From positions 1,860,001 to 1,924,000 of the forward strand of contig NZ_CP038492.1 in the NCBI RefSeq assembly GCF_004751985.1: a stretch of 64,000 nucleotides of DNA, written 5' to 3'. This DNA is from Rhodophyticola sp. CCM32. GTDB taxonomy: Bacteria; Pseudomonadota; Alphaproteobacteria; Rhodobacterales; Rhodobacteraceae. The notes beneath the pieces are model-generated. The model saw only the letters and a program-made list of their open reading frames with translations, did not search any database and was not told where the DNA came from. Below, piece by piece: positions 5,556 to 50,082 of this stretch. Both the position numbers and the translations under genes were made by a program. How positions within the stretch are numbered: the stretch's first letter is position 1; each line of letters begins with the position of its first letter.

Positions 5556-5715
5556 GGGTCTGACATGTTGCGCATCCGGCGGGCGCCCGGTCTGCGCGAA
5601 ATGGCGTCTCCTCAGCCACGCGAGGGCAGCCCGTCGGGGCCTGCGCGCGCGACACTACCTTGGGCAACACCCAAGTCAAGACGGAGATCGGCTTGACGGG
5701 CAGGCCCCTGCCAGT

Positions 5716-5987
5716 CTCGGGCCTGTTGACGTTCATCTTTGGCCACTGGCGCGAGACCCGTTTTGCCGCTGGCGCGTTGAATTGAACACAGCGATGTGGG
5801 CCATCAGAAGGGCAATTCGGCAATGTCAGAGGCAAAATGGGCCGCGTCCCGAAGGGAGTGCGCCAAAATTGCCCATTTCTGCGTTAAGATCGCTTGCATT
5901 AGCGGGCTAGTTCTGCGCGATCTTGCCTGGAACTGAGCAATTTTGGACTGAAACCAGTGGTCAAATATGAACGTCAACAGGCCCGAG
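5716..5987. repeat. 272-bp element bounded by 34-bp inverted repeats, MITE-like
   Basis: The 471-base gap between the MATE gene and ychF contains two 34-base arms, 5716-5749 and 5954-5987, that are inverted copies of each other with two mismatches (the outer 21 bases, CTCGGGCCTGTTGACGTTCA plus one, are identical). Inside are smaller nested inverted pairs: AAGATCGC with GCGATCTT near 5886 and 5918, and a CCAAAATTGC / GCAATTTTGG pair. No ORF of its own is evident and no clear target duplication was found outside the arms. The right arm ends 39 bases before the ychF start. It may be a non-autonomous mobile element or a long regulatory hairpin. Confidence 0.6.
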
Positions 5988-6026
5988 ATGCCCGACGATA
6001 TCCACTTGCAAGATACGGGGCCGGTC

Positions 6027-7124: not shown

Positions 7125-7166
7125 AACGCGCAAGGCCTAGGGTCAGGCCCCCTTAAATCCATGCCT

Positions 7167-7194
7167 TTCAGCCTGCGGCCAAAAGGCGGCTGAA
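7167..7194. terminator. Hairpin between convergent genes, likely terminator
   Basis: TTCAGCC (7167-7173) pairs with GGCTGAA (7188-7194), with an inner GCC/GGC pair around an AAAA loop. It lies 43 bases after the ychF stop and 16 bases before the stop of the convergent gene, so it could serve both. There is no strong T run on either side, which makes a classic intrinsic terminator uncertain. Confidence 0.4.
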
Positions 7195-7209
7195 CCGGCG
7201 ACAGGGCGG

Positions 7210-7653
7210 TCAGTTCCGCCAGACAGCATCCCCAAATTCAAGATACACCGTGCCACCACCCCCGGTCAGAAGCGGCAGATTGGTTGGCCGGCAGGTTGCA
7301 TTATCCTGCGACAGGCGTCGTGCAGAGCGGACGCGAGTGAAAAAGCGCGCATCCACCTCGACACGCTGATTACTCATCACCAGTACCGTATCACGCAGCA
7401 TGTCATTGATCGTGCCGCGCAGCCGACTGTCGCGCAGATATCCCGACCCGCACAGCGCCATCCGCCCTTCCACCGGGACCAGATACCAGCGGTATTGATA
7501 AACCCGGCCAACCCCGCCGGTGAAATTGACCTCGCCATCAATGAATTCAGCGGTCATGGGTATCTGAAATTCCTGTGCCTCAACCGGTTTTGGAGCAACC
7601 CATAACCCTGCCAGAAATATCAGCGCCGGCAAAACAGATGTGATGATCTTCAT
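7210..7653 (-). CDS. Secreted hypothetical protein (cell-envelope)
   Basis: A 147-residue protein with an N-terminal Sec signal peptide (basic MKIITS, hydrophobic VLPALIFLAGLWVA, likely cut near VEAQ-EF at residue 26-27). The mature part is about 120 residues, predicted mostly beta, with two cysteines (in MALCGSGY and NATCRPTNL) that could form a disulphide. No family recognised. It is a single gene with an AT-rich upstream region carrying a pair of AATATTAAC direct repeats, which suggests regulated expression. Function unknown. Confidence 0.65.
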   Translation of the reverse strand: MKIITSVLPALIFLAGLWVAPKPVEAQEFQIPMTAEFIDGEVNFTGGVGRVYQYRWYLVPVEGRMALCGSGYLRDSRLRGTINDMLRDTVLVMSNQRVEVDARFFTRVRSARRLSQDNATCRPTNLPLLTGGGGTVYLEFGDAVWRN

Positions 7654-7689
7654 AGGCCGTTCCTTCCGGGTTTCATAAGACAGGTACGT

Positions 7690-7718
7690 AATATTAACGA
7701 TTCAATTGCAATATTAAC
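7690..7718. promoter_or_regulatory. Direct repeats AATATTAAC spaced 20 bp, upstream of the secreted protein gene
   Basis: AATATTAAC occurs at 7690-7698 and again at 7710-7718, exactly two helical turns apart, in a short AT-rich stretch 37-65 bases upstream of the secreted protein start. This fits a pair of regulator half-sites or an upstream promoter element. The rest of the 227-base gap shows nothing recognisable. Confidence 0.3.
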
Positions 7719-7880
7719 TATTTATTTACCTGATCTTTGGAAACCGGATTGATCTGAGTCAATAGGCTCTTTTCCTTTGCATTTTGTGCCATGTAAGACG
7801 TGAACCGGAAAGCTGGCATGTTACCCGCAGCGATGCCCCTGAGATCAGGGCTAAGGGTCAGGATCTAAGGGGCCTGGACC

Positions 7881-9044
7881 CTATGCTGCGGGCATCCGTT
7901 TCTCGACAATTTCCGCCCACCAGGAACAGCCCGCCGGGATCGCTTCGTCATTGAAGTTGTATTTCGGGTGGTGAACATCCGCCGTGTCTCCATTGCCGAC
8001 CAGAATATAGGCCCCGGGGCGCGCGTTCAGCATGAAGGCGAAATCCTCGCCCCCCATGACCTGCGGTGCATCATCGCAACCGCCCGAAACCGAAGCGGCG
8101 ACCTCGGCGGCGAAGGCTGTCTGTTCCTCGGAATTTACCATCACCGGATAGCCGCGCCGGTAATCAACCTCGGCCCGGCCACCCAGCATCGCCGCTGTGC
8201 CTTCGGCAATCTCTTTCAGCCGTGCCTCGGCCATATCCTGAACGTCCGGGTCCATGGTCCGCACGGTGCCGCGCAGATGCACGGTTTCGGGGATCACATT
8301 ATGCGCCAGCGATCCGGTCTCGAACGCGGTGACGGACACGACAAGCTGTTTGACCGGGTCCAGATTGCGGCTGACAATGGATTGCAGGGCCAGCACCACA
8401 TGGGCGCCCATAACCGTGGTGTCCACGGTTTCATTGGGTTTGGCCGCATGGCCGCCCTTGCCCGTCAGATAGATATCGAACTGGTCAGCGGCAGCAAAAA
8501 ACGCGCCCGGGCGGATCGCGAAAGACCCTACCGGTTTGCCCGGCCAGTTGTGCATTCCGTATACCTCGTCGATCCTGAACTGCTCCATCATCCCGTCATC
8601 GACCATTTCCTTGCCGCCACCGCCGCCTTCTTCGGCGGGTTGGAAAATCACCGCAACGGTGCCGTCGAAATTCCGCGTCTCCGCCAGATATTTCGCCGCC
8701 CCCAGCAACATCGCCGTATGCCCGTCATGGCCGCAGGCATGCATCGCACCCGGGGTTTTGGAGGCATAGTCCAGCCCCGTATCCTCAAGGATCGGCAGCG
8801 CATCCATATCGGCGCGCAAGCCGATGGTTTTGCCGGATTTGTTGGTTTTCCCCTTGATCAGCCCCACCACACCGGTGCGGCCCAACCCGGTCACCACCTC
8901 GTCACAGCCAAAGGCTTTCAGCTTTTCCTCGACCAGGGCCGAGGTCCTGTGTGTCTCGAACAGGATTTCGGGGTTTTCATGTATATCGCGGCGCCATTCG
9001 GTGATCTCGGGCAGCAATTCGGCAAAACGGTTCTTCACGGGCAT
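7881..9044 (-). CDS. M20 family amidohydrolase (hippurate hydrolase / N-acyl amino acid amidase-like), paralogue 3
   Basis: A 387-residue zinc hydrolase of the M20D group, which cleaves N-acyl amino acids such as hippurate, N-acetyl amino acids or indole-acetyl conjugates. The metal site is complete: HACGHDGHTAML (around residue 100) with its Cys/His ligands, PAEEGGGGGKEM with catalytic Glu-Glu, a MHNWPG histidine and the C-terminal GGEDFAFML. The dimerisation lid domain lies in between. It is the last of three similar genes on the minus strand (7881-11417). An AGGAGA precedes the ATG. The gap to the next paralogue is only 21 bases, so the three are one transcription unit following argE. Confidence 0.88.
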   Translation of the reverse strand: MPVKNRFAELLPEITEWRRDIHENPEILFETHRTSALVEEKLKAFGCDEVVTGLGRTGVVGLIKGKTNKSGKTIGLRADMDALPILEDTGLDYASKTPGAMHACGHDGHTAMLLGAAKYLAETRNFDGTVAVIFQPAEEGGGGGKEMVDDGMMEQFRIDEVYGMHNWPGKPVGSFAIRPGAFFAAADQFDIYLTGKGGHAAKPNETVDTTVMGAHVVLALQSIVSRNLDPVKQLVVSVTAFETGSLAHNVIPETVHLRGTVRTMDPDVQDMAEARLKEIAEGTAAMLGGRAEVDYRRGYPVMVNSEEQTAFAAEVAASVSGGCDDAPQVMGGEDFAFMLNARPGAYILVGNGDTADVHHPKYNFNDEAIPAGCSWWAEIVEKRMPAA

Positions 9045-12807: not shown

Positions 12808-13815
12808 ATGCCCGATGGGGGTCTGGCTTCTGTCCTTGATGTCAAGGACCTCAAAACTGTATTCCGAACCCGGCGCGGTGAAATCCACGCGGTGAATGAT
12901 GTGAGCTTTCACCTCGAACCGGGGGAGCTTCTGGGCGTGGTGGGCGAAAGCGGATCGGGCAAATCGGTGACGATGATGTCGCTGATCGGCCTGCTGCCGA
13001 CACCTCCTGCCGAGGTTCGTAACGGCCGGGTGATGTTTGAAGGCCAGGATCTTCTGACATGTACCGAGAAACAGCTGCGCGCCGTTCGCGGGGCCCGGAT
13101 CGGTTTCGTGTTTCAGGACCCGATGACATCGCTGAACCCGGTGTTCAATGTCGGCTACCAGATAACCGAACCCCTTAGAAAACATATGGGGCTGAATAAA
13201 TCCCAGGCCCGAAGCCGCGCGGTCGAATTGCTGGAACTGGTGGGCATTCCCGATGCGGCCCGGCGACTGGCCGATTATCCGCATCAGTTTTCCGGCGGTA
13301 TGCGCCAGCGGGTGATGATTGCGATCGCCCTGGCCTGCGACCCCAAGGTTCTGATCGCCGATGAACCCACAACCGCGCTTGACGTCACGATCCAGGCGCA
13401 GATTCTGGAACTGGTCAAGGAACTGCGCCAGAAGCTTGGCATGGCGATTGTCTGGATCACCCATGATCTGGGCGTGATCGCCGGGATCGCCGATCGGGTG
13501 ATGGTGATGTATGGCGGTCAGGTCGTGGAACAGGGACCGGTGCGGGAGCTGTTCGCAAACCCGCAGCACCCTTATACAAGAATGCTTCTGGAAACCGTGC
13601 CCTCGGTCACCGGAGACCGGGCTGAACGGTTGCAGGTCATCGAGGGCCAGCCGCCGATGCTGGCCGCGCAGCCAAACAGCTGCCCGTTTCACGCGCGATG
13701 CCCGCTGGCCTTTGATCGTTGCCTGAAACAGAACCCATGGCGCACCCCTGTCGGCCCCGATCATGACGCGGCCTGTTTCTGGGATGTGGATACAGGCAGG
13801 CCCCGCGATGTTTGA
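12808..13815 (+). CDS. Peptide ABC transporter ATP-binding protein (DppD-type)
   Basis: A 335-residue cytoplasmic ATPase of the oligopeptide/dipeptide importer family. Walker A is GESGSGKS (about residue 50), the signature is FSGGMRQRV, Walker B is [12 protein letters not shown], and the family-specific C-terminal extension carries the cysteine cluster [14 protein letters not shown] that in DppD/OppD holds an iron-sulphur cluster. The strong GAGGAG precedes the ATG. Its end overlaps the next ATPase by eight bases. First gene of a six-gene operon: ATPase, ATPase, binding protein, LysE, permease, permease. Confidence 0.92.
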
Positions 13816-14845
13816 TGCCAGCGCCAACAGGAAGCTTGTCGAGATCGACGGACTGAAAATGTATTTCCCGATCCATTCGGGATTGCTGCGCCGCCACACG
13901 GGCGATGTGAAAGCCGTCGATGGCGTGAGTTTCGACATTTTCGAGGGGGAAACCCTGGGTCTGGTCGGCGAATCGGGTTGCGGGAAATCCACCTGTGGCC
14001 GGGCCATCCTGCGATTGTATGAACCGACGGACGGCTCGATTGTCATCGACGGGGAAGAGATTGCCGATGCGGGGTATGATAAACTGCGCCGGATGCGGCC
14101 CACCATGCAGATGGTGTTTCAGGACCCTCAGGCCAGTCTCAACCCGCGGATGACCGTGGCCGCGATCATCGGCGAACCGTTAAGCGAACATTCCGGCAAA
14201 TCCAAAGCCGATCAGCTGGAACGGATTTACGAGTTGATGGATGCGGTCGGTCTGAACCGTGATTTTGCCAATCGCTATCCGCATGAGTTTTCAGGCGGCC
14301 AGCGCCAGCGCATCGGCATCGCCCGGGCCCTTGCGCTCAACCCGAAATTCATCGTCTGTGACGAACCGATTGCGGCGCTGGACGTGTCGATCCAGGCGCA
14401 GGTTGTCAATCTTCTGGAAGATTTGCAGAAACAACTGGGCCTGACCTATCTGTTCATCTCTCACGATCTTTCCATGGTGCGCCATATCGCAGACCGGGTG
14501 GCGGTGATGTATCTGGGCAAAGTGGTTGAACTGGCCCCCCGTGAGGGCCTGTATGCAGACCCAATGCACCCCTATACCAAAGCGCTGCTTTCCGCCGTGC
14601 CGGAGCCTGACCCGGTTGCCCATGACACGGCCAACCGTACCATTCTGCAAGGTGATGTTCCCAGTCCGGCGAACCCGCCGCAGGGCTGCAATTTCTGCAC
14701 CCGCTGCCCGTCAGCCACAGATATCTGCCACAGGATCGACCCCGAATTTCGTGAGGTGCAGCCCGGCCGCTATGCGGCCTGCCACCTTCTCAATGACACC
14801 AAGACGACCGCTGATCAAACAGCGGCGCCCGAGGCACAAGAATGA
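13808..14845 (+). CDS. Peptide ABC transporter ATP-binding protein (DppF-type)
   Basis: A 345-residue partner ATPase of the same importer. Walker A GESGCGKS, signature FSGGQRQRI, Walker [13 protein letters not shown] and the C-terminal cysteine motif [14 protein letters not shown] are all present. I placed the start at the ATG 13808, which overlaps the end of the preceding gene (GATGTTTGA), as is usual for coupled DppD/DppF pairs; the frame extends 45 bases further up, but only inside the upstream gene. DppD and DppF form the heterodimer that drives the two permeases encoded downstream. Confidence 0.92.
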
Positions 14846-29821: not shown

Positions 29822-30622
29822 GTGGCCGTGAATGCGGTCGCACGGCACGGTGTCAGCGTGGCGCTGGCTTGCCGCACGTTCCAAATCAGCGAGACGTGCT
29901 ATCGATACAGCCCGGTTCTGAGCGACGAGAACGAAGAGATTGCTGATTGGCTTGAACGTCTGACGGCAAACAAGCGCAACTGGGGCTTTGGCCTGTGCTT
30001 TTTGTATCTGCGCAATGTGCAGGGCTATGGCTGGAACCACAAACGCGTCTACCGGATCTACTGCGAACTGGAGCTGAACTTGCGGATCAAGCCTAAGAAA
30101 CGTTTGAAGCGGGACAAACCTGAACCGTTGGCCGTGCCTGACGTCCCAAACGACACTTGGTCGATGGATTTCATGGCGGATCAACTTGCTGATGGCAGGT
30201 CGATCAGAACATTGAACGTGCTGGATGACTTCAATCGCGAAGGCCTGTGCATTGAGGTCGACTTCTCACTGCCAGCGGAGCGCGTTGTGCGCAGCCTGAA
30301 CCAGATCATTGAATGGCGCGGCCAGCCGCACGCAATTCGCGTCGATAATGGTCCAGAATATATCAGTGGCACGCTCATGACATGGGCCGAGAAACGCAAC
30401 ATCCGGCTTGAATACATCCAGCCAGGCAAACCACAGCAGAACGGCTACATAGAACGTTACAACCGCACTGTTCGTGGCGAGTGGCTCGGACAATACATCT
30501 TTGAAACGATTGAGGAGGCACAAGATAAGGCGACTGAATGGCTCTGGACTTACAACAACGAGCGACCCAACATGGGTATAGGCGGCATAACACCCGCCAT
30601 GAAACTGAAAACAGCCGCGTGA
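29822..30622 (+). CDS. IS3 family transposase OrfB (catalytic part)
   Basis: A 266-residue rve-type integrase domain, translated mainly as the C-terminal part of OrfAB by -1 frameshifting. HTH_21-like segment ([27 protein letters not shown]), then the catalytic triad: D in [11 protein letters not shown] in [10 protein letters not shown], and E in [14 protein letters not shown], 35 residues later as the family demands. Complete, so the element may be active. The ATG given is the first in frame; translation from it alone would lack the DNA-binding part. Confidence 0.92.
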
Positions 30623-35529: not shown

Positions 35530-37064
35530 CTACTTGAACCAAACATTCTCGGCCGCGCGTATGCTTCCGATTGCAATCGTGCCGGGGACGTAGCCTGCCA
35601 ACTGCGTAGAAATACCTTCCGGAGTGTTTGCAAAGGCCGGGATGATGACGCCACCGCGTTCTTGCAGGACGGCTTGGGCGTTCCCAATAGCAGTCAGGCG
35701 TTCTTCCGCATCACTGGATCCGCGTGCTGTCTGTAGCAGCGCATCAAACTCAGCATCGTTGAAGCCAGTGTCATTTGCCGGAGACCCACCGGAGTAAGCC
35801 AGCGTCATGATCAGGTCGATTGTTGGGCGTCCCCCCAAAGTGTTGAGTGGAAGGGGGTTTGGGCCCAGACATTGCCCCAGTAGCCGTCGGCCGGCTCACG
35901 CTGGACTTGGATATCGATGCCAGCCGCTGCTGCGTGTTCCTTGAACAAGGTCGCACCATCCACAGCCTCTGCCCCTGCAGCATCAGAGGTTTGCAGCACA
36001 ATTGGGCCCGAATGACCCGACTGAGCATAGAGCGCCTGCGCACGATCCGGATCATAGACGGATTGCGGCACATCTGCCGAAAATTCTGCGGCGCTGGGCG
36101 GCACCGGGTTATCGTTGCCAAGGCGCGCGTGGCCACCATAGATACGCTGAATAAAATCTTCTCGGTCGATGGCCAGCTTCAATGCCTGGCGCAACGCCAG
36201 GTTATCGAAAGGTGCCCGGTCAACCATCATGTTAAAGCCTGAAAAGCCGGTGCCGGTCGAGAATTGTATGTCAACTGTTGGCAAGCTTTGCAGCAATGGG
36301 ACGGCGCGCGCATCCAGATTTCCTGCGATATGCACCTGACCGGATTGGATTGCGTTGACCCGTGCAGAAACGTCATTGGCCGCAAGCAACGTCACGGTAT
36401 CGACAAAGGCGCGATCGGTGCGGAAATATCCATCGAACCGCTCAGTTTCGAGGATTTCACCGGGCACAAAATTGGTGATGCGATAGGGGCCGGTGCCCAC
36501 GCCGTCATACGCGGTCGTACCCTCGGGAACGATTGCAAGCGAATAGTTGGAAAGCGATGGCGCAAAGAAGTAGTTCGGTGCTTTGAGCGTAAAGATGACA
36601 CGGTGGTCACCATCTGCCTCCAGCGTATCAATCGCTCCGATGATGGCGCGAGAGTTGGAACGACTGCCTTCGGCACCATGGGACATGATCGAATATATCA
36701 CATCGGCAGAGGTTACGGGCTTGCCATTGTGAAAGGACGCTTCGGGGGCCAAATTGAAGGACCAAACGCGACCCTGCTCGCTTTCTTCCCAGCTCAACGC
36801 CAGTCCGGGCCGAAGTTCGGCATTTGTACCAGAGATTTCGACCAGCGTATTGAAAACCGTCCCGCTGACAACTGCCATGTATGGTGAATTGAACGTGCGC
36901 GGGTCTAGGCTGTTGCCAGTTGACGCGCCATTGATTGCAATAACCAGATCGCCGCCGCGGTTGGCGTCTTGCGCAATGGCACTGTGTGGGGCGAGGCCAA
37001 GCAAGGTCGCTGCCCCCGTGGTAGCCAGCATGCCACGTCGGGTCATTTTGTTGGAAAATGTCAT
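35530..37064 (-). pseudogene. ABC transporter periplasmic peptide/osmolyte-binding protein, frameshifted
   Basis: A DppA-family (SBP_bac_5) binding protein. The first frame (37064 to 35811) codes for 417 residues with a twin-arginine-like leader (MTRRGMLATTGAATLLGLAPHSAIA, likely Tat or Sec exported) and the body through YWGNVWAQTPFHSTLW. It then goes out of frame. The rest (ending VWFK at 35530) is open in another frame from GGRPTIDLIMTLAYSGGSPAN. The two join if one G is added to the run of six Gs read at 35831-35836. So it is either a real pseudogene or a base-calling error; the repaired protein of about 510 residues is full length. The ATG at 37064 follows GGAG. First gene of the importer operon; an operator-like palindrome lies 58 bases upstream. 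Confidence 0.85.
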
Positions 37065-37121: not shown

Positions 37122-37145
37122 ATCATGTTCATTATTGTACATAAT
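37122..37145. promoter_or_regulatory. 24-bp palindrome, operator site 1 (ABC importer operon)
   Basis: On the plus strand the arms are ATCATGTTCA and TGTACATAAT with a TTAT spacer; 8 of 10 arm positions are self-complementary. Read on the gene's strand it shares ATGTACAATAATG with site 2 at 43234. It lies 58-81 bases upstream of the binding-protein start. Probably bound by the TetR regulator at 43269. Confidence 0.65.
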
Positions 37146-37333
37146 GATTTGCAGGCGATCTTGCGTTTGTCAACAGTTTTGCCGTTTTCACGATGCCTGA
37201 TCGGCCTTCTTGATCAAACCTAAGAGAAAACCCAGAAGACACGCGTCAGAAACGGCCAACATCGAACGCGCCAAGCGAAGCGGAAACGATTTCTTCTTTT
37301 GGATTGGCCGCCCATACCTTCGCGGTCATGCGG

Positions 37334-38335
37334 TCATGCGGTCATCGATGTACCTTTGCGCAATGCCGATGGCGTTATGCCAAATTTGGCGCGAAAGTGA
37401 CGCGAGAAGGAAGATGTTGACCCAAACCCGCTTGCAAGGGCCACTTCCGCGAGGCCAAGCTCGGTCTGTTCACATAATTGATACGCAACATCGAGTTGGA
37501 GATCGCGGTAATATTTGCGCGGCGAGCATCCAAGGTGTTTGGAGAAGACGCGTTCAAGCTGTCTTTGCGATATGTTGTGGGTTCGGGCGATATGTCCAAG
37601 GGCCAGTGGCGCGTCGATGTTCTGGCTCATCTGCCGAACAACGGACCGAAGCATACTTGGAAGATGGCGCAGCCGGTTCTCCAATGCGCCGGGCTGAACG
37701 CTTGTTGCTTGACGTGGGAACGAGACAAGCGTGTGGTCGCAGAACAACTTTGCCGTTTGGGTGCCAAATTCGCTTGCAAGAAAATCGATCATAAAATCCA
37801 GCGTAGCCAGCTCGCCCGCACATGTCGCGACCTTGCCTGCCGAATTGAACAAGGTGTTCGTGACCTGTAGCGAAAGATTGCGCTCGGCAAAGGCAGCCTC
37901 GGATGCCCAATGCACAACACATTCCGCAGCTGGAATTGCATGTTCTTCAGCCATAACCCATGTGGCCGCTCCGATGCTCGCGATCCGTATCCCGTTGCGC
38001 TTGCTGGTGCGGATCAGGCGCCGCAGATCGTCGCGCAGCTCAATCGGGACATCCAGACCACAACATAAGAAAATCATACTTGGACGGTTCAGGGTCGACA
38101 TGCGCGCCAAGAGAGCTGCGACATCGTAATTTCCAGACAGAGCAACACCGGCACGAGGATCGCAATCCTGCCGCTTCAGGTGAAGTGTTGAAACGGCAAT
38201 TTTCGCACCTTCGCATTGTGACTTTAGGAACTCAAAAGGTTCGCAAAGACACCCGACGCTGATCAGTGATGCGCCTTCAACAAGCACAATGCAGTATTCC
38301 GCCCTGCGGTCATCCGGATCGACGTCATATGTCAT
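37334..38335 (-). CDS. GlxA-type AraC family transcriptional regulator (DJ-1/PfpI domain)
   Basis: A 333-residue regulator. The N-terminal DJ-1/PfpI-like domain (about residues 15-190) contains the family segment IRIASIGAATWVMAEEHAIPAAECVVHW; here the usual nucleophile-position Cys is replaced by Ala (GAATW). The C-terminal AraC helix-turn-helix pair (about 225-325) reads LGHIARTHNISQRQLERVFSKHLGCSPRKYYRDLQLDVA and EVALASGFGSTSSFSRHFRAKFGITPSALR. GbdR, CdhR and other regulators of glycine betaine, carnitine and choline catabolism have this architecture, which suits the sarcosine oxidase context. It overlaps the soxG stop by four bases (ATGA), so it is the last gene of the sox operon. Confidence 0.85.
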   Translation of the reverse strand: MTYDVDPDDRRAEYCIVLVEGASLISVGCLCEPFEFLKSQCEGAKIAVSTLHLKRQDCDPRAGVALSGNYDVAALLARMSTLNRPSMIFLCCGLDVPIELRDDLRRLIRTSKRNGIRIASIGAATWVMAEEHAIPAAECVVHWASEAAFAERNLSLQVTNTLFNSAGKVATCAGELATLDFMIDFLASEFGTQTAKLFCDHTLVSFPRQATSVQPGALENRLRHLPSMLRSVVRQMSQNIDAPLALGHIARTHNISQRQLERVFSKHLGCSPRKYYRDLQLDVAYQLCEQTELGLAEVALASGFGSTSSFSRHFRAKFGITPSALRKGTSMTA

Positions 38336-38844
38336 TCCAGGTGATGTGCACAGGACAGCAGGCTTTGTAGCATCGCTTGGCCATGTGCGCGGCCAACATG
38401 AATGCGGAAGCTTTGCGGGTTCTTATAAGGGTACAAAAAGACCCCCATACCAAACAAAAGCCGCGCAACAGATCGCGATGGCACCGCGAGTGACACCTCC
38501 CCTCCCCGTTTCAATAGCTCAAAGGCATTAGGCCCCGAAATATCATACACGCTATAGGCATCTGTCGCATCCGATACCGCCTGCTCCAAATCGTCGTGCC
38601 AGCCGTCTTGGGGCACTTGATCGTGATCCACCAGAAGGACCCGATCACGCCGGATTGCAAGGGCATAGGGATCCTGTGATACCACATCGGGCCATCCCGA
38701 AGCGTCTTTGAACTGTTTTAATATGCGCGGCCCCGAAACGAGCGTTTGACGCTGGATGGGTGCCAGCGCAATCGTCACGCCGACCGCCGTCAGGGGCAAG
38801 GTGGCGTCGTCAATGAAATCCCATTTATGCCGATCATCACGCAT
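38332..38844 (-). CDS. soxG: Sarcosine oxidase gamma subunit
   Basis: A 170-residue protein matching the heterotetrameric sarcosine oxidase gamma chain in length, position and pattern (DAYSVYDISGPNAFELLKRGGEVSL and LLFGMGVFLYPYKNPQSFRIHVGRAHG), which is an aminomethyltransferase-fold fragment. The subunit holds the complex together beside the alpha chain. It overlaps soxA by eight bases upstream and the GlxA regulator by four bases downstream, so the order is soxB, soxD, soxA, soxG, regulator. The sequence is divergent, hence moderate confidence from sequence alone and higher from context. Confidence 0.8.
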   Translation of the reverse strand: MRDDRHKWDFIDDATLPLTAVGVTIALAPIQRQTLVSGPRILKQFKDASGWPDVVSQDPYALAIRRDRVLLVDHDQVPQDGWHDDLEQAVSDATDAYSVYDISGPNAFELLKRGGEVSLAVPSRSVARLLFGMGVFLYPYKNPQSFRIHVGRAHGQAMLQSLLSCAHHLE

Positions 38845-41634
38845 TCAGCTTGCCTCCTTCGGGATCATAAAAGCAGGGCGCACAAACGACTGCTTCGACG
38901 CTTTTGCCAAGATGCCAGGCGCGGATGACCTCGCCGTGCCGTTCCGCGCCGCGCTCCAACAAACCCAAGGCGATGGGCCGGCCAAGCGTCGGGCTGTCAT
39001 AGCTGGACGTGACAATCCCTATTGAGGCAGGTTGTTCACCGCCCGTCACCAAATGAGCTCCCGTCGCCAGAGGTTCGGCATTTTCTTGCACTTCAAGACC
39101 CACAAACTGGCGGCGGTTTGTATCGTTGGCCACATCCGTATGCAGCCCCCGATCCCCAACAAAAGCCGCGGTCTTCTTTTGGCGCGGTAGGTCAAATCCC
39201 AGATCGTGCGGCATGGTTTCACCGTCAGTGTCCTTGCCAATAATCAGGTATCCCTTTTCGGCGCGCAAAATTGACAGGGCTTCAACGCCCAATGGGCCAA
39301 CACCAAGTGGCGCACCAGCCTGACTAATCGCCCGCCATAGATTTGCGACCGCAGAGGGTTTGGTCGATATCTCGAAACTTGTGTCACCCGTGAAACTGAC
39401 CCTCGCAATACGCAATGGCGCGCCTGCGAATTCCGTTTCGCGGAACGTCATATGGCTGAATGCCTCCGCGGACAGGTCGATACCTAAGTTCAATGCCCCA
39501 ACCACTGCGCGGGCTTGTGGTCCTGTGACCGTAACCGTGCTCCAATTCTGACTCATGTCATGGACGAATATTTTGTCGGGGTCATTGCCGTCTTGCCGCC
39601 AGGATTCCAACGCCATGCGCACCCCGTCAACATGCGAAGACGAACACGAGATAACGAAGCGGTTCAGCCCCAATCGGGCGACAACACCGTCATCATAAAC
39701 CGTGCCTTTTTCGGTCAGCATAAAGCCGTACCGGATCGCTCCTGGTTTGAGTGTTTTGATAGTGTTGTAATATATGAAGTTCACGAAGGCTTCGGCGTCC
39801 GGCCCCATAACTTCAATCGAGCCCAGCGGTGACGCGTCCAAGATCCCGCCCGTTGTGCGCGCCATGACCACTTCGTCACGTATATGCTTGGCGGGGTCGC
39901 TCGATCCATACCAACCCGGACGCAGCCAGCCACCATATTCCCCAAGTGCTGCATCCGCGGCGCGATGGATTGGTTCCAGCTCTAAGCGTTTAAGCGGATG
40001 AAAAAGCTGCCCGCGGTGATGCCCATGATAAATCTCAAGCGGAATAGGTACAAAGGGCGGGCGGAAGGTGGTTGTGCCAACCTCTGGAATTGCGCGGCCC
40101 TGAATTGCCGCCATTGCCGCCAAACCGGCCATGTTCGATGTCTTGCCCTGATCAGACGCCATACCCAGCGTCGTGTACCGCTTTAGATGCTCAACCGAGA
40201 CGTAATTCTCCCGCGCAGACAACTCGACATCCTTGAGCGTGACATCGTGTTGGAAATCGATCCATAGACGCCCCTTTCCGCCCGGTTCGGGCCAAAGCGG
40301 CGTGATCGCGTAGGTGTTTGTGACTGGGTCTGGCTTTCGCGCTAAACTGACGGCCCGTGCCTCCTCCAAAGCCGCGTTCAGATCAAATGTGCCATTGGCC
40401 GCGCCAACTGCGAACATTCCGTCCGGTGCCTTACTGGGGACGAAGGCCTGCTTGGCGTCGGACCAATCAAGTTTCCCCCAGCGTGTCGCCATAAATGAAC
40501 AATTGGCGTCAACCCGCCTGAGACAAGCACACTGTCAACCGCGTGGAATTGCCCGGCCACCTCTACACCTTTCAACAGCTTCCGCCCCACGGCGCGCATC
40601 TCTCCCAATGTCGGGTCCAAAACCAGAACCCGCGCGCCTGCGGCCTCCAGTTGGCCAATAATGGGCTCCGCAAAGTTGTTGTTCGACAAGACCGCAATTT
40701 CGCGTCCGGCCAAGACGCCATAGCGGGCCAAAAATTCGCTCGCGCCGGTCAAAGACATCACGCCGGGGCGGTCATTATTGGCAAAGGTGATTGGCCGGTC
40801 CAACGCGCCCGTTGCCATAATCATTCGCCCTGCCCGCATGCGGATCAGGCGTGGTGCCGCGCCAAAGCCATTGTTCTGCACCAATCCGACCAATCTGTGA
40901 TCAAACACACCAAAGGCGGTTGTCGATGCAAGGATGCGCCCCCCTGCAGTTTGGATCGCCGCGATTTGTGCCGCAACCCAATCCTTGGGCGCAGTTCCAT
41001 CAATGCTGCCAGCCGCATACAGTCCACCACCCATCTCTGGGTGGTCATCAACCAGCACTGCGTTTTGTCCACTTTCAGCAGCCGCCCGCGCCGCGACCAG
41101 ACCAGCAGCGCCGCCACCGATCACCAAAACATCGCAAGCCTCATGGACCTGATCGGAGGTGAAATTGTCCAACAACTCCGGGTTCAACGTGCCCAAACCC
41201 GCCATCTTGCGGATCATGGGTTCAAACAAGTGCCAGTCCGGCCACATGAAGGTTTTGTAATAGAATCCAGCACTCAGCCAGCGATGGAACAAATCCAATC
41301 CACCTTTGATGTCAAAAAGCGCCGAAGGAAACGCATTGACCGAACGCGCCGACATACCATCTGCCAAGGGCGTTGTTGTGGCGGGACAATTAGGCAATTC
41401 GCGATTGTTCAACGTGACATTGAAGATGGCATTCGGATCATCAAACCAAGCCCCCCAAACCCCACGAGGCCGGTGGTATTTAAAGCTTCGGCCGACGACA
41501 CGCACACCATTGGCCAGCAAGGCAGAGGCAAGCGTATCCCCTTCAAATCCAGTATAGGATGTGCCGTCGAACGTGAAACCAAGCGCCCTGGAGCGGTCAA
41601 TCAATCCAGCATTTGAAACGCGGTGTGAGGTCAT
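38837..41634 (-). pseudogene. soxA: Sarcosine oxidase alpha subunit, split by a single-base frameshift
   Basis: The large subunit of heterotetrameric sarcosine oxidase, which with SoxB converts sarcosine, O2 and tetrahydrofolate to glycine, H2O2 and methylene-THF. Part 1 (41634 to about 40479) has the 2Fe2S-like N-terminal fold with no clear cluster cysteines, then the NAD-binding VLVIGGGAAGLVAARAA. Part 2 (to 38837) starts at GKLDWSDAKQAFVPSK and has the folate-binding aminomethyltransferase domains (GILDASPLGSIEVMGPDAEAFVNF, and a GcvT C-terminal part). The two join if one G is added to the run of five at 40475-40479 (HAGG to GKLDW). The repaired length, about 930 residues, is close to the family's 960-1000. 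Otherwise intact. Confidence 0.88.
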
Positions 41635-41921
41635 GCGCTGGCTTCCTTTGTCCCGACATCGCGAAAGGATGTGGCACCTATGACAGCCATCGTGACCGAA
41701 TGGCGCTCAAGCAGGAACACCTCTTGGCACGGCAAGTGCATCCAGATTTCGCGCACATGGCCGTGGTCATTGCGTTGCGTGTACAGATACTCCGACCAAT
41801 CCTTTGCCGAAACTTCTGCCTCGGAACCGGCTGTGTCAGGCCGCACTTTTCCTGCCTCACCAGCAAAATGAAATTCACGCTCATCACGGTCGCCACAAAA
41901 GGGGCATGGGAAAAGTTGCAT
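41631..41921 (-). CDS. soxD: Sarcosine oxidase delta subunit
   Basis: A 96-residue zinc-binding subunit. Its N-terminus MQLFPCPFCGDRDEREFHFAGEAG gives the Cys-x2-Cys plus His ligands, and HLPCQEVF gives the last Cys; these four are the known zinc site of SoxD. The family's ending YLYTQRNDHGHVREIWMHLPC is present. Its stop overlaps the soxA start by four bases, and it starts 12 bases after soxB. Confidence 0.93.
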   Translation of the reverse strand: MQLFPCPFCGDRDEREFHFAGEAGKVRPDTAGSEAEVSAKDWSEYLYTQRNDHGHVREIWMHLPCQEVFLLERHSVTMAVIGATSFRDVGTKEASA

Positions 41922-41932
41922 ATCTTCGGTCC

Positions 41933-43186
41933 TTAATGCGCGATGCCGGATGCGGCACCTTCGTCGATGAGCCTGCCAGTGATAAATCTGTCCGGATCAA
42001 ACGGGCGGCTGATGTCGTGGTGCGTGCCGGTGGCCAAAATATGTGCAAATAAGGTGCCACCAGCGGGGATCGCCTTGAACCCACCCGTGCCCCAACCGCA
42101 ATTGACATAAAGCCCCTCCACACCGGACGGCCCAATGATCGGACTACTGTCAGGGGTTACATCTACAATGCCAGCCCAATGCCGCAGCAATTTCACCTTG
42201 GCCAAAGCTGGAGCCATTTCGACCAGACCGCCCAAAACGGCTTCTTGGATCGGCATATTCCCGCGCTGTCCGTAAGACGGGACCCTGTCCAGCCCACCGC
42301 CAATGACAAGCCCGCCTTTGTCGGATTGGCTGAAATAAGTGCCATAGGGCGGACAAAACGCCACCGTGTCGATCACCGGCTTCATCGGCTCAGAGACAAA
42401 CGCCTGAAGCGCAAATGACGTGATCGGCAACGTGTATCCTGCCAGTTTTGCCAGAACAGACGAATGGCCTGCGACCGCTGCACCAACAGCGCCGCCGCGT
42501 ATCTCGCCTTGGGTTGTCGCGACGCCAACACAACGCCCCCCTTCGGTGATCACATCCGTGACTTCGCAGTTTTGAATGATATCGACACCCAACGCATCCG
42601 CTGCACGCGCATACCCCCACGCAACGGCATCATGACGCCCCGTTCCGGCACGTCCCTGCCACACAGCACCGTGGATGGGAAAACGTGCATCGGGACTGAA
42701 GTTCAGGATCGGGGCCAGCTTCTTCACCTGATCCACATCAAGCAAGTCAGCGTCAGCCCCATTCAAACGCATCGCATTGACATTGCGGGCTGCCAATTCC
42801 ATCTCGGGCTCGGAATGCGCCGTAACAACCATGCCGCGCTGAGAAAACATGACATTATAATTCAGCTCGCGCGAAAGCCCTTCGTACAGCTTTACAGACA
42901 GATCATATAACGCTGTGCTTTCGGGGTAGTAGTAGTTGGAACGGATCACTGTTGTGTTGCGTCCGGTGTTGCCGCCGCCAAGCCATCCTTTTTCGATCAC
43001 CGCCACATTGGTCACGCCGTGGTTTTTGACGAGATAATAGGCTGTTGCCAACCCATGCCCGCCGCCGCCAATGATTATAACGTCATAGGTGGCACGCGGT
43101 TTGGGTGACCGCCAAGCCGGACCCCAGCCCTTCTGGCCTCGCAGTCCTTCGCGTAGTAAGTTGAATGCTGAGTAGGTCTTGGTCAT
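41933..43186 (-). CDS. soxB: Sarcosine oxidase beta subunit
   Basis: A 417-residue FAD-dependent subunit of the DAO family; it holds the non-covalent FAD and the covalent FMN shared with SoxA. The N-terminus is the usual KTYSAFNLLREGLRGQKGWGPAWRSP, followed by the dinucleotide motif VIIIGGGGHGLATAYYL and EKGWLGGGNTGRNTTVIRSNY, and the C-terminal PSGVEGLYVNCGWGTGGFKAIPAGG. I chose the ATG at 43186 (MTKTYSAF), after AGGATCGAA; a TTG six codons upstream is possible but less likely. It leads the five-gene sox operon, divergent from the TetR gene with the operator in between. Confidence 0.94.
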   Translation of the reverse strand: MTKTYSAFNLLREGLRGQKGWGPAWRSPKPRATYDVIIIGGGGHGLATAYYLVKNHGVTNVAVIEKGWLGGGNTGRNTTVIRSNYYYPESTALYDLSVKLYEGLSRELNYNVMFSQRGMVVTAHSEPEMELAARNVNAMRLNGADADLLDVDQVKKLAPILNFSPDARFPIHGAVWQGRAGTGRHDAVAWGYARAADALGVDIIQNCEVTDVITEGGRCVGVATTQGEIRGGAVGAAVAGHSSVLAKLAGYTLPITSFALQAFVSEPMKPVIDTVAFCPPYGTYFSQSDKGGLVIGGGLDRVPSYGQRGNMPIQEAVLGGLVEMAPALAKVKLLRHWAGIVDVTPDSSPIIGPSGVEGLYVNCGWGTGGFKAIPAGGTLFAHILATGTHHDISRPFDPDRFITGRLIDEGAASGIAH

Positions 43187-43233
43187 TTCGATCCTGAATG
43201 GCAAATTTCAAGCCTACGTTAGTGGACAACATT

Positions 43234-43257
43234 TTAATGTACAATAATGTACTTAAA
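43234..43257. promoter_or_regulatory. 24-bp palindrome, operator site 2 (between soxB and the TetR gene)
   Basis: Arms TTAATGTACA and TGTACTTAAA around an ATAA spacer, 8 of 10 arm positions complementary. It shares ATGTACAATAATG with site 1. It begins 48 bases from the soxB start and ends 12 bases before the TetR start, so a bound protein would block both divergent genes and the TetR gene would regulate itself. Confidence 0.7.
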
Positions 43258-43268
43258 GGAAGGGCGAG

Positions 43269-43928
43269 ATGGGGACCGAAAAAGAAGCACGGGTACGGGG
43301 CCCTGGCCGCACAACGCGTGAAGACTGGATGCAGATCGCGCTGGATACGCTCATTTCCGACGGCGTAGAGGCTGTTAAAGTCCTTGCTCTTGCAGAGAAA
43401 CTGAAGTGCGCGCGGTCCTCCTTTTATTGGTACTTCAAGAATCGATCTGACTTATTGGACAGCCTTCTTGACCATTGGCAGTCAACCAATACCGACGCCC
43501 TCGTCCGCGCGGCCAACCAACCCGCTGACAGTATCAACTTTGCACTTGGCCATCTGTTTTCCTGCTGGGTGAACGACGGAAAATTTGACACACGCCTTGA
43601 TTTTGCAGTGCGCGACTGGGCCAGACGGTCCGGCACTGTGCGCCGCGCTGTCGATATCTCGGATGCCTCGCGGATTGCGGCGGTGGCGAACATGTTCGAG
43701 CGGTTTGAATACCCGCGAAATGAAGCAGATGTGCGCGCGCGCATCGTCTACTTTACACAGATTGGGTATGACGCGTTGGATCAGCGTGAAAAGATCGAAG
43801 ACCGAGCCGCCCGCAGCCGCGACTACCTGTTTTGCATGACCGGTCAAGAGCCATCTGAAGCGGAGATATGCGCACTCAAAGATCGCACTTTAGGGGACAC
43901 CAGTCACAAAAAAAATGTGCGTGCTTGA
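43269..43928 (+). CDS. TetR family transcriptional regulator
   Basis: A 219-residue regulator with a TetR DNA-binding domain (about residues 15-65): TREDWMQIALDTLISDGVEAVKVLALAEKLKCARSSFYWYFKNRSDLLDSLL, where the K-C-A-R-S-S-F-Y-W-Y-F-K-N recognition helix is typical. The ligand domain (70-219) has no recognisable subfamily. GGAAGG precedes the ATG. It is divergent from soxB, and palindromes of one design lie in front of it, the ABC importer and the dehydrogenase/mttB/dddP-like operon. I infer it represses these three units until a methylated amine or a product binds. The effector is unknown. Confidence 0.9.
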   Translation: MGTEKEARVRGPGRTTREDWMQIALDTLISDGVEAVKVLALAEKLKCARSSFYWYFKNRSDLLDSLLDHWQSTNTDALVRAANQPADSINFALGHLFSCWVNDGKFDTRLDFAVRDWARRSGTVRRAVDISDASRIAAVANMFERFEYPRNEADVRARIVYFTQIGYDALDQREKIEDRAARSRDYLFCMTGQEPSEAEICALKDRTLGDTSHKKNVRA

Positions 43929-43999
43929 TTGGTAGATTGATGACCCGTGCAAAAATTCTACGCTGAAAGCGCCTTATTGAACCAGCAAACCTGACAATG

Positions 44000-44023
44000 A
44001 TTATGGACATAACTGTCCATAAT
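44000..44023. promoter_or_regulatory. 24-bp perfect palindrome, operator site 3 (dehydrogenase/mttB/dddP-like operon)
   Basis: Arms ATTATGGACA and TGTCCATAAT around a TAAC spacer; all ten arm positions pair. Its design (10-4-10) matches sites 1 and 2, and the ATTATG.ACA arm aligns with theirs. It ends 40 bases before the start of the dehydrogenase gene, in the position expected for a repressor operator. Confidence 0.7.
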
Positions 44024-46468: not shown

Positions 46469-48019
46469 ATGGTAGAAATAGAAGCCAAAGGTCGTCGTGG
46501 CGGGGGCCGTCGCAGACGCGACAATGCCGCGACAAATACAGTTGCACGCCAACCGAACTATCGCCAACTTCGCCATCCCTTTTCGCCACAAACCGTATTC
46601 TCCGAGGATGAGGTTCAGTCGATCCACAACACCGCATTGCGCGTCATTGAAGAGCTTGGCATCAAGGTTCTGCTACCAGAAGCACGCGAAATATTTGCGA
46701 AAGCAGGCGCGCGCGTGGACGACGACGAAATGGTCTTTATCGGGCGTGATGTTGTTGAGGCAGCGATTGAAAGCGCCCCCAGTTCCATCCCCCTTCGCTC
46801 AATCAATCCAGCGCGCCAGCAGATCTACGAAAACGGTGCGATGCTGTTCATGGCAGGTGCGGGTTGTCCGAACGCCACCGATTTTGAGCGCGGCCGCCGC
46901 GCCGGCGACTTGGGGGCTTATGAGGAAACCATAAAGCTGGCCCAACATTTCGACGTTCTGCACATGTTTGGCCCCGCAGTTGAGCCGCAAAATGTGGCAG
47001 CACACCTGCGCCACTACGATATGATGCGCGCGCAGATGGAATTCGGTGATAAGCCGATGTTCGTATATTCGCGTGGCCGTGCTCAGGTTCAACAGAGCTT
47101 TGAGATGATCCAGATTGCACAGAATTTGTCGAGCGATGATTTTGCAGAGGGTGTCTGGGCGTCGTCCGTCATCAACTCCAATTCGCCGCGCATGTTGGAC
47201 AACCCAATGGCGCAAGGGCTGATCGACTTCGCACGTGCAGGCCAGATGACAATCATCACACCCTTCTGTCTGGCGGGCGCAATGGCTCCGGTCACCGTCG
47301 CGGGTGCGCTGACATTACAGCATGCCGAAGCGATGGCAGGTATCACATTGGCCCAACTGGCCAAAAGCGGGGCGCCCATCAGCTATGGCGGGTTCAGTTC
47401 CAACGTCGATATGAAATCAGGCTCACCTGCTTTTGGCACGCCCGAACACATCAAAATGCAGATTGGCGCAGGCCAGTTGGCACGCCATATCAACTTGCCT
47501 TGGCGTTCTGCGTCGGGGGCGGCGTCCAACACGCCTGACATGCAGGCGGCGACGGAAACTAATATGTCCTTGTGGGGCGCTGCAAATGCGAATGCCACCT
47601 TGACCGTACATTCGGCCGGATGGCTCGAAGGCGGGTTAAGCTTTGGGTATGAGAAATTCATCAACGACATTGAAGCGCTGCAAACGCTGGCTGAAATGTG
47701 CACTAAGCCAAGCGGTAGCGACGCTGAAATCGGCTGGGATGCGCTGGCCGATGTACAGCCAGGCGGCCACTTCTTTGCTACGCAACACACAATGGATCGT
47801 TACCAGACCGCGTTTTATTCTCCCTTGGTCGCGGATCTTCAGAACTTTGGCGCGTGGGAAGATGCAGGCAGTCAGACGTCTGCGCAACGCGCAACAGGGA
47901 TATGGAAACAAATCCTTGCCGAGTTCACACCCGCCCCGACGGGAGCAGAAGCGAAGGAGCGCTTGATGCCCTATATTGAGAAGAAAACCGCTGAAGGAGG
48001 GGCCGCCTTGCTTGATTAG
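46469..48019 (+). CDS. Trimethylamine methyltransferase (MttB) family protein, non-pyrrolysine
   Basis: A 516-residue TIM-barrel protein of the MttB superfamily. The first 28 residues are very basic (KGRRGGGRRRRDN); the body starts FSEDEVQSIHNTALRVIEELGIKVL and has the family's GAGCPNATDFERGRRAG, IITPFCLAGAMAPVTVAGAL and EALQTLAEMC segments. It has no in-frame amber codon, so it belongs to the pyrrolysine-free group whose known anaerobic members (such as MtgB) transfer a methyl from glycine betaine to a corrinoid protein. No corrinoid protein gene is in the window, and in Rhodobacteraceae the partner and acceptor are not established. It is co-transcribed with the GcvT-type dehydrogenase, so tetrahydrofolate or a corrinoid may accept the methyl. 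Confidence 0.85.
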   Translation: MVEIEAKGRRGGGRRRRDNAATNTVARQPNYRQLRHPFSPQTVFSEDEVQSIHNTALRVIEELGIKVLLPEAREIFAKAGARVDDDEMVFIGRDVVEAAIESAPSSIPLRSINPARQQIYENGAMLFMAGAGCPNATDFERGRRAGDLGAYEETIKLAQHFDVLHMFGPAVEPQNVAAHLRHYDMMRAQMEFGDKPMFVYSRGRAQVQQSFEMIQIAQNLSSDDFAEGVWASSVINSNSPRMLDNPMAQGLIDFARAGQMTIITPFCLAGAMAPVTVAGALTLQHAEAMAGITLAQLAKSGAPISYGGFSSNVDMKSGSPAFGTPEHIKMQIGAGQLARHINLPWRSASGAASNTPDMQAATETNMSLWGAANANATLTVHSAGWLEGGLSFGYEKFINDIEALQTLAEMCTKPSGSDAEIGWDALADVQPGGHFFATQHTMDRYQTAFYSPLVADLQNFGAWEDAGSQTSAQRATGIWKQILAEFTPAPTGAEAKERLMPYIEKKTAEGGAALLD

Positions 48020-48060: not shown

Positions 48061-49332
48061 ATGATGACTTCGGAATTTGATGTTTTCAAAGACGACCGAA
48101 AGTCGACCTATCTAAATTCCGAAGGGTCGGACAAACCATTGATCAGCCCGGTCAGCGATGCAGTGCTTGACCGCGCGCGACGCTATCGTCTTTCCCGTTT
48201 GAGAGAACAGATACAGCACTACGATATCGCAGCACTCCTCCTGTATGATCCCGTCAACATCCGCTACGCGTACGATTGCTCGAACATGCAGGTCTGGACC
48301 CTGCACAATCCCATTCGGTATGCGTTGATCCTGAATGATGGACCCGCTGTTATGTTTGAATTTGCGGGGTGCGAACACGTCAACAAAGAGCTGCCGGGCA
48401 TCGATGAAATACGGGTGGCCACAAGCTGGATGTACCTAACCAAAGGCGACAAGGTCGATCTGTCCGTTGCCAACTGGGCCAATGAAATCAGCGATTTGGT
48501 ACGCACCTATGGTGGTGGAAATCTGCGCATTGCGGCAGACAGGTTGGACGGTGTCGGTGTAAATGCACTTGAGGCTTGTGGATTGTCCTGCCTTCCCGGT
48601 GATGCGCTGACCGAACAGGCGCGCGCGATCAAGTCCCCCGACGAAATTGAATTGATGCGCTGGACCATTCGCGTCTGTGAAGTCGGAATGGCGCGGATTT
48701 ACGAACATTCGCAACCCGGTGTCACAGAACGAGAGCTCTGGGCGCATCTTCACTTTGAAAACGCGCGATCAGGTGGCGATTGGCTTGAGACCAAGCTTTT
48801 GACATGCGGGCCGAACACAAATCCTTGGTATAAGGAATGTAGCGACCGCATGTGCCAAGCAGGTGAAATGATCTCTTTCGACACCGATATGATCGGCCCC
48901 TACGGCTATTGCGCCGACCTTTCGCGGAGTTGGACATGCGGATACACGGAATTTTCGGACATACAGAAAAAGATCTACGGCCGGGCGTTGGACCAGATAA
49001 ATCACAACTTGGATCTACTGAAACCTGGCCTTGCCTTTAAAGAATTCAATGAGGGAAGCTGGCGGATTCCAGATGAAAACGTCGCGTATCGGTATTCTCT
49101 TGCCCTGCACGGCGTTGGGCTTGCTGACGAATGGCCTGCCTTGTGGTTGCACATCGATTGGCAAGACGATCAAACGACAAGCGGTGCCTTTGAACCCGGC
49201 ATGGTCGTTTGCGTGGAAAGCCTGATGGCGGAAAGTGGCAGCGAAAGCGTCAAACTGGAAACTCAGGTCTTGATAACCGCGCACGGTGCCGAACGATTGG
49301 ACAGCTTTCCGTGGGAAAATCCGAGCGCGTGA
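48061..49332 (+). CDS. DddP-like M24 metalloprotein (DMSP lyase / creatinase family)
   Basis: A 423-residue pita-bread-fold (M24) protein. Compared with DddP, the roseobacter DMSP lyase, it shares YDPVNIRYAYDCSNMQVWTLHNP, RTYGGGNLRIA and WLETKLLTCGPNTNPWYKEC. All six metal ligands line up: Asp274 and Asp276 in SFDTD, Asp286 in CADLS, His350 in HGVGL, Glu386 in CVESL and Glu400 in KLETQ. DddP cleaves DMSP to acrylate and dimethyl sulfide; relatives include creatinase and Xaa-Pro peptidases, which act on N-methyl substrates. Given its place after the dehydrogenase and MttB, either DMSP or a betaine/creatine-like compound is possible. Last gene of the operon. Confidence 0.8.
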   Translation: MMTSEFDVFKDDRKSTYLNSEGSDKPLISPVSDAVLDRARRYRLSRLREQIQHYDIAALLLYDPVNIRYAYDCSNMQVWTLHNPIRYALILNDGPAVMFEFAGCEHVNKELPGIDEIRVATSWMYLTKGDKVDLSVANWANEISDLVRTYGGGNLRIAADRLDGVGVNALEACGLSCLPGDALTEQARAIKSPDEIELMRWTIRVCEVGMARIYEHSQPGVTERELWAHLHFENARSGGDWLETKLLTCGPNTNPWYKECSDRMCQAGEMISFDTDMIGPYGYCADLSRSWTCGYTEFSDIQKKIYGRALDQINHNLDLLKPGLAFKEFNEGSWRIPDENVAYRYSLALHGVGLADEWPALWLHIDWQDDQTTSGAFEPGMVVCVESLMAESGSESVKLETQVLITAHGAERLDSFPWENPSA

Positions 49333-49484: not shown

Positions 49485-50082
49485 GAGCGTCTTGCGCCTG
49501 ATTGGATTCGGGATTCACATTTGGTGTTAACCGTGATTCCTTGTTTTCAAACAACAAGGGCGGTTTTGAGCTACCCCCCGAAATTTGGACACTGACGTAA
49601 GCTATGATTTGCTGTCTGCTGATCTCCGACGAAGAGGAGATCAGAGATGTCGAAACGGAAGAACCACAGCGCTGAGTTCAAGGCGAAAGTTGCGCTTGAA
49701 GCTTTGAAGGGGGAACGCACTGTTGCTGAGCTGTCGAGCCAGTTTGGCGTCCATCCCACGATGATCCACAGTTGGAAGCGGGCGCTGAGCAAGGGGGACG
49801 TGATCATCCTGGACAACCTTTCCAGCCACAAAAGTGCGCGGGCCGCCGAAATGTTGCGCGATGTCGGTGCGTGGTTCTTGTTCTTGCCGCCATACTCGCC
49901 CGATCTCAACCCCATAGAGATGGCTTTCTCAAAGCTCAAAACGCTGATCCGAAAAGCCGCAGCAAGAACATATGACGCGTTATGGAACGCGGTCGGTCAA
50001 GTGTGCGATCTCTTCACGGACGAAGAATGCTTCAACTTCTTCAAAGCCGCAGGATATGAAACCAATTAAACGCAAAACGCTC
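49485..50082 (+). mobile_element. IS630-type element remnant with an IS3 fragment in place of its centre
   Basis: TA-flanked ends GAGCGTCTTGCGCCTGATT (left) and ..AACGCAAAACGCTC (right, to 50082) match the ends of the IS630-type element at 21342-23686. The left 85 bases and the right 290 bases are IS630, but the N-terminal and first catalytic part of the transposase is missing. In its place is an IS3 end and start (about 49572-49788; CCCCCCGAAATTTGGACA then an OrfA beginning). Total length about 600 bases. No longer mobile on its own. Confidence 0.65.
49647..50069 (+). pseudogene. Chimeric ORF: IS3 OrfA N-terminus fused to IS630 transposase C-terminus
   Basis: The 140-codon open frame begins as an IS3 OrfA (MSKRKNHSAEFKAKVALEA, helix-turn-helix to MIHSWKRAL, residues 1-46) and changes within three codons to IS630 transposase (GDVIILDNLSSHKSARAAEML, then YSPDLNPIEMAFSKLKTL) to its C-terminus. 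The join is in frame. The protein would have one DNA-binding domain and half of a DDE core (second Asp and Glu, no first Asp), so it should not be catalytic. A ribosome site (GAAGAGGAGATCAGAG) is kept from the IS3 part. Confidence 0.7.

Follow-up and report, generated by a model that had tools for sequence, protein, structure and literature searches.

GbdR of Pseudomonas is an AraC-type activator of betaine catabolism that controls betaine and sarcosine genes, and BetI is a TetR-family protein acting as a repressor. The locus discussed here lies within a 64,000-nucleotide stretch of Rhodophyticola sp. CCM32 (NZ_CP038492.1, positions 1,860,001 to 1,924,000; hereafter the window), where a gene for a TetR-family protein sits among three candidate operator sites and the genes of a predicted betaine-type N-demethylation module. 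The proposed system resembles that of GbdR in the control of betaine and sarcosine genes, but its regulator is of the TetR and not the AraC family. With BetI it shares the TetR family and a place in the catabolism of methylated quaternary amines; BetI targets choline oxidation, whereas the window protein would target demethylation. The choline-to-betaine genes are described as the ones under the control of BetI (PMC4744692, PMC12442346). A scan of the window protein against NCBIfam returned low-scoring matches to the MtrR, TetR and AcrR models, with no BetI model among the matches at E 0.001 (the library was not checked for a BetI model).

Two further systems come from Ruegeria pomeroyi, in which TmaR and TmoR control trimethylamine catabolism and TmaR adjoins mgdABCD (PMC13390433). 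These are likewise regulators beside methylated-amine catabolism genes, but they are an AraC-type activator and a GntR-type repressor rather than TetR proteins, and a palindromic operator is not mentioned in the available part of that paper (PMC13390433). The glycine betaine demethylase of the same organism, MtgBCD, contains a PF06253 methyltransferase, as does the window in its MttB protein, but the available part of its description does not mention a regulator (PMC12478193). That source notes up to seven PF06253 methyltransferase genes; marine bacteria can hold several MttB-family methyltransferases per genome, for which diverse methylated substrates are suggested (PMC12478193). Among the titles and abstract openings of the literature matches listed there was none on a TetR regulator of such genes, and no earlier description of TetR control of betaine-type demethylation, as proposed for the window.

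The explanation favoured here, in which we have good confidence, is that of an autoregulated TetR protein that represses a module for N-demethylation of betaine-type compounds and is probably released from its sites when a methylated amine is present. The TetR-family protein (43269-43928) would bind TGKACA-N4-TGTMCA as a dimer, with half-sites centred 10 bp apart. Binding at three places would repress four transcripts, namely tetR itself, the soxBDAG-like unit including the AraC gene at its end, the dehydrogenase/mttB/M24 operon and the ATP-binding cassette (ABC) importer. A betaine-type quaternary amine, or a demethylation product, would then release TetR, and uptake and stepwise demethylation would be switched on together. 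Binding of the sites by this protein is very likely, and repression is nearly as probable, because of the TetR family and the position of the sites near start codons. A methylated amine as the class of ligand is a reasonable expectation of lesser strength, drawn from the gene set. The three predicted operators are the following.

37122 to 37145: operator site 1 (predicted), upstream of the ABC importer, letters ATCATGTTCATTATTGTACATAAT
43234 to 43257: operator site 2 (predicted), between the divergent soxB and tetR, letters TTAATGTACAATAATGTACTTAAA
44000 to 44023: operator site 3 (predicted), upstream of the dehydrogenase/mttB/M24 operon, letters ATTATGGACATAACTGTCCATAAT

An earlier note on this DNA had presented these sites as palindromes with 10-bp arms and a 4-bp spacer, and the coordinates and letters that it gave match the sequence exactly. 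Its design holds for site 3, a perfect palindrome as claimed, whose arms pair at 10/10 positions, but sites 1 and 2 pair at only 8/10. Palindromes of this 10-4-10 form that pair at 8/10 or more occur at 39 places in the window, the sites included (six places at 9 or more, one at 10). With so many places at least as good, sites 1 and 2 do not stand out by their pairing; palindromy by itself carries no significance in their case, and it was dropped as the argument. What distinguishes the three sites is a common core, TGKACA-N4-TGTMCA, their place before start codons, and their conservation. This core, and not the 24-bp palindrome of the earlier note, is the predicted recognition element.

The stretch that the note reported as shared by sites 1 and 2 in the proper orientation, ATGTACAATAATG, is found twice in the 3.86-Mb genome, both times there and oriented as the note has it, and each site does fall within 82 bases of a start codon. 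Site 1 lies 57 bases from the importer gene start at 37064, and site 3 lies 40 bases from the dehydrogenase start at 44064, a codon chosen from the MKS-type starts of relatives. Site 2 lies 47 bases from the soxB start (43186) and 11 bases before that of tetR (43269); a palindromic site near the regulator's own gene is a trait of the TetR family. The 18-base core ATGKACANNNNTGTMCAT occurs at four places in the genome with up to one mismatch, three of which are the sites and the fourth of which is inside a 645-codon open frame; with up to two mismatches it occurs at 21 places, compared to five for the control pattern. A matrix built from the three sites scored them at 34.7-36.5 bits, which is circular, and the next best place in the window at 6.0. 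As a wide detector this matrix was set aside, given that it found close relatives and missed many TGGACA-N4-TGTCYA sites; the core pattern was used instead.

Conservation was assessed chiefly upstream of the dehydrogenase-like gene, where the core was searched in approximately 390 bp with up to two mismatches unless stated. A relative of the window TetR was detected at 1e-20 in 137 of the 295 genomes of the family, and 48 loci were taken from the genome collection. Among the matches listed, 79 had at least 55% identity, of which 63 were compared upstream; the window's own locus (L104) and one at a contig end (L110) were left out. Genomes outside the 137 were considered TetR-negative and rechecked at 1e-5, at which 14 of the 18 in the comparison gave nothing and three gave matches of 26-31% identity (the nearest at 29% and 6.6e-13). 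A set of 20 distant dehydrogenase paralogues includes the one of the window's own genome, and G084, G099, G140 and G186 occur both in it and in the other sets.

The core was present in 44/45 TetR-positive genomes, 4/18 TetR-negative genomes and 2/20 distant paralogues. With no more than one mismatch the counts were 37 of 45, 1 of 18 and 2 of 20, while the reversed pattern at two mismatches gave 7/45, 2/18 and 0/20 and Markov sequences gave 1.9%. At the dehydrogenase-like gene, the occurrence of the core thus tracks that of a TetR relative encoded in the same genome. None of the 44 sites of relatives departs from AC or TGT, and 43 of them have an A following AC; information at the outer flanks is 0.02-0.18 bits, and the sites stand a median of 56 bp from the ATG. 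Selection of these sites by core similarity inflates the core positions, but does not affect the fall in conservation towards the flanks. In 35/44 the half-site has the TGG form that site 3 shows. The match shown for L111 is unconvincing, although the upstream region has another two-mismatch place at -72. In G084, one of the four TetR-negative genomes with the core, a 72-residue piece resembling the end of the window TetR protein (C62:58842-59057; 38% identity) adjoins the dehydrogenase-like gene, which has the core upstream (L186); the piece is perhaps a diverged or broken regulator, and would explain the core. Two of the distant dehydrogenase paralogues, L199 and L200, are in TetR-positive genomes with a one-mismatch core upstream, and may be further targets.

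The other two positions were also recovered in relatives, such that the core precedes dehydrogenase-like, soxB/tetR and importer genes. The sites are conserved and co-occur with relatives of the regulator, and the reading of the locus as a TetR regulon in the earlier note is supported to this extent by comparison of sequences; the lack of conservation in relatives that the note had named as grounds for rejecting it was looked for and not borne out. Within 200 bp before tetR, the core with up to two mismatches is found in 9/13 close relatives (control 1.8%), although the match in L003 is doubtful. The order soxB, site, TetR, site, dehydrogenase is retained in L007 and L098, the contig of the former ending within the dehydrogenase-like gene, and soxB, site, TetR in L006, L008 and L010. 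In L004 the order is soxB, sites, dehydrogenase, TetR, importer. L156 has the core ahead of a dehydrogenase-soxB-soxA unit, twice ahead of the importer and once in the gap separating its divergent MttB and TetR genes; an extra one-mismatch match within its MttB gene is probably due to chance. Other genera usually show the order site, dehydrogenase, MttB, TetR, to which sox genes are appended in L021 and L028; L019 and L025 keep this order, except that no dehydrogenase was matched in the former and no MttB in the latter. Site 1 rests on three orthologues only, all of the importer orthologues of at least 56% identity (3/3; the window, L004 and L156). In L004, a frame that appears transposase-like by eye (13567-14769) separates the importer gene from the site upstream of it, at 14982, and the importer may thereby have lost contact with its operator.

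Among annotated plasmid regions, 4/6 have the core with up to one mismatch at the module or at tetR. Leisingera thetidis has two exact cores before a row of FAD oxidoreductase, MttB-family and TetR genes, and in Gemmobacter fulvus a single exact core precedes the MttB-family and TetR genes. In Sinorhizobium meliloti pSymB and Rhizobium etli p42f (L228 and L231, upstream of 6971) two near-cores lie between the TetR gene and a divergent flavin oxidoreductase gene; their TetR proteins are 39% identical to that of the window and are encoded beside flavin oxidoreductase and ABC-transporter genes. All four are cultivated bacteria in which core matches accompany a relative of tetR or of the module. 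No core was found by tetR in Sulfitobacter sp. S190, where a 63% identical TetR is encoded next to an acyl-CoA dehydrogenase gene, or in Ruegeria sp. TM1040.

In the recognition helix, RSSFYW(Y/F)F is retained in all aligned relatives outside Bacillota, in an alignment that holds several loci twice under different identifiers. Bacillota relatives have KSSFYWYFKNR or KTSFYWYFKNR, with KGSFYWYFKNK in L050. Here TGTACG-N4-CGTACA is present in the 200 bp that precede the start of the matched gene, with up to two mismatches, at 14/15 loci, seven of which are exact (Markov 0.6%; reversed 0/15); having been read off the same 15 loci, the pattern shows non-chance and is not an independent prediction. 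In L009 and L097, a Pro replaces the Ala just before the helix, the neighbouring genes are others, and there is no site. The core is also present in L031 and L032, which are labelled as Gammaproteobacteria and Acidimicrobiales metagenome-assembled genomes. The putative operator is common to a wide TetR group. A broader proposal, to which we give slightly less than even chances, is that a single regulator lineage and its operator code pair, paralogue by paralogue, with orphan MttB or other betaine demethylases, each repressor sensing, and thereby reporting, its neighbour's substrate. The code would be TGKACA-N4-TGTMCA in Alphaproteobacteria and, with Lys for Arg in the helix, TGTACG-N4-CGTACA in Bacillota, and two such TetR paralogues of the window's own genome would share operator logic. 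A conserved regulator and operator would tie MttB-family methyltransferases to an importer and to the later demethylation steps; the operator could serve as a regulon marker readable from genomes, and the compound that lifts the repressor as a handle on the substrate.

Several observations weigh against the proposed TetR regulon. The promoter scan was at chance level, with five matches against 4.4 expected, of which two overlap sites 1 and 3. The Fisher value of 1e-9 for 44/45 versus 4/18 overstates independence, as the genomes are related. L109 is TetR-negative with a convincing site. Four of the 13 close relatives have no core within 200 bp of tetR; L004 and L099 have it elsewhere in the module, L009 and L097 not at all. 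Where TetR relatives with 57-65% identity are encoded among other genes (L097, L009 and L226), no site was found near tetR, nor was one for the L227 TetR of 49% identity. Importer relatives of 39-42% identity have the core in only 1/18 cases (L151, two mismatches, approximately 210 bp upstream), and site 1 is therefore not a general importer feature. A relaxed-core scan of the own genome gave two places compared to eight for the reversed control; in that scan the evidence is position, not number. Finally, cross-talk is possible, in that a paralogous TetR could bind site 3.

This last point underlies the alternative that fares best, which we nevertheless regard as unlikely: the sites are operators, but site 3 is mainly bound by the paralogue, or both repressors share the sites in a joint regulon. 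It overlaps the autoregulated-repressor explanation, and the two are not mutually exclusive. The paralogue is encoded near 43 kb of the chromosome, is 53% identical to the window TetR, and follows dehydrogenase/MttB genes of its own that are preceded by TGTACATTTCTGTCTA, an operator similar to those of the window. Both proteins have RSSFYWYF in the recognition helix, and the prevalence of the TGG half-site of site 3 among relatives is likewise in favour of the paralogue. Against this, site 3 has the AT-rich outer arms of the 16 window-type-module sites (itself among the 16), the window tetR gene adjoins it, and L007 and L098 carry sites at the same two places.

Far less probable is that the palindromes serve the AraC/GbdR-like regulator of the sox unit, acting as an activator. 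A GbdR-related AraC gene is indeed the last gene of that unit; its product falls under the curated GbdR family cut-off (153 bits versus 480). The AraC query, however, matched only 1/41 loci and 2/8 in a second set (L096, L156; 26-29% identity), while the core is in most modules, and core presence follows that of TetR. Chance palindromes in AT-rich intergenic DNA are scarcely credible, for although 39 window palindromes are as good as sites 1 and 2, the common core is near-unique in the genome and 44/45 exceeds the 1.9% Markov control for the class of site 3, with site 1 having its three orthologues only.

The genes attributed to the putatively TetR-controlled module are as follows.

43269 to 43928, forward strand: TetR-family regulator of 219 residues; PF00440 at 32.5 bits (cut-off 24), with the conserved recognition-helix stretch RSSFYWYFKNR
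35811 to 37064, reverse strand: ABC importer substrate-binding protein (SBP_bac_5); PF00496 at 222.7 bits
34555 to 35523, reverse strand: ABC importer permease; PF00528
33740 to 34558, reverse strand: ABC importer permease; PF00528
32154 to 33743, reverse strand: ABC importer ATPase with two ABC domains; PF00005 in two stretches
41933 to 43186, reverse strand: soxB-like, sarcosine oxidase beta subunit family; TIGR01373 at 669 bits (cut-off 529), best solved match 2gag_B
41640 to 41933, reverse strand: soxD-like; PF04267 at 81 bits
40378 to 41634, reverse strand: soxA-like, amino-terminal part; TIGR01372 positions 3-351, in a frame that differs from that of the carboxy-terminal part
38837 to 40492, reverse strand: soxA-like, carboxy-terminal part; TIGR01372 positions 430-995
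38332 to 38844, reverse strand: gene at the soxG position; 34-48% identity to same-place genes in relatives, no match in Pfam or NCBIfam
37334 to 38335, reverse strand: GbdR-like regulator of the AraC family, at the end of the sox unit; PF12833
44064 to 46466, forward strand: dimethylglycine-dehydrogenase-like FAD/folate enzyme; PF01266, PF16350 and PF01571, best solved match dimethylglycine dehydrogenase 4pab
46469 to 48019, forward strand: MttB-family methyltransferase; PF06253 at 587.7 bits, positions 2-500 of 500
48061 to 49332, forward strand: M24-family enzyme, DddP-like; DddP model at 376 bits (cut-off 600), alignments to 4b28 and 4rzy

MttB enzymes demethylate quaternary amines, the dehydrogenase tertiary amines and sarcosine oxidase secondary amines; by this chemistry of the three families, the gene set can in principle strip a betaine stepwise. 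The importer is of the peptide type. The window MttB is about equally similar to the solved 4yyc, 2qne and 9yce (the last a glycine betaine methyltransferase), at approximately 260 bits each. A PF02607 domain, looked for as the corrinoid partner of MttB, was found once, in a frame of 250 codons at another place in the genome. In L225, a frame that resembles homocysteine methyltransferase by eye (5350-8449) is near the genome's only B12-binding_2 match, as in a split methionine synthase. Glycine betaine as the sole substrate was not adopted; for R. pomeroyi, the dimethylglycine and sarcosine steps of this substrate are assigned to SPO3400 and SPO3396 (PMC4744692), and the own genome holds a further, more distant dehydrogenase paralogue, around which there are no MttB or sox matches. 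The homarine pathway was also considered, and no link was found. The M24 enzyme falls under the curated DddP family cut-off, and keeps the six DddP metal ligands named in the available part of PMC4108388, as placed by eye via motifs and the alignments to 4b28 and 4rzy. A 70% identical M24 gene lies within a similar module in L102.

The window soxA (38837-41634) is in two overlapping frames, to which the 931-residue relative of L098 aligns over residues 1-389 and 387-931, with the junction near 40470; either an assembly error or decay would account for it. Elsewhere in the own genome, a dehydrogenase paralogue (C1:39030-41431) and an MttB gene (C1:1131200-1132695) are likewise each split in two, with the halves of the paralogue in different frames; this hints at scattered indels in the assembly, or decay. 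Close to either end of the module, at 29822-30622 and 49647-50069 of the window, are pieces that look like integrase and transposase genes, and the module is possibly an island.

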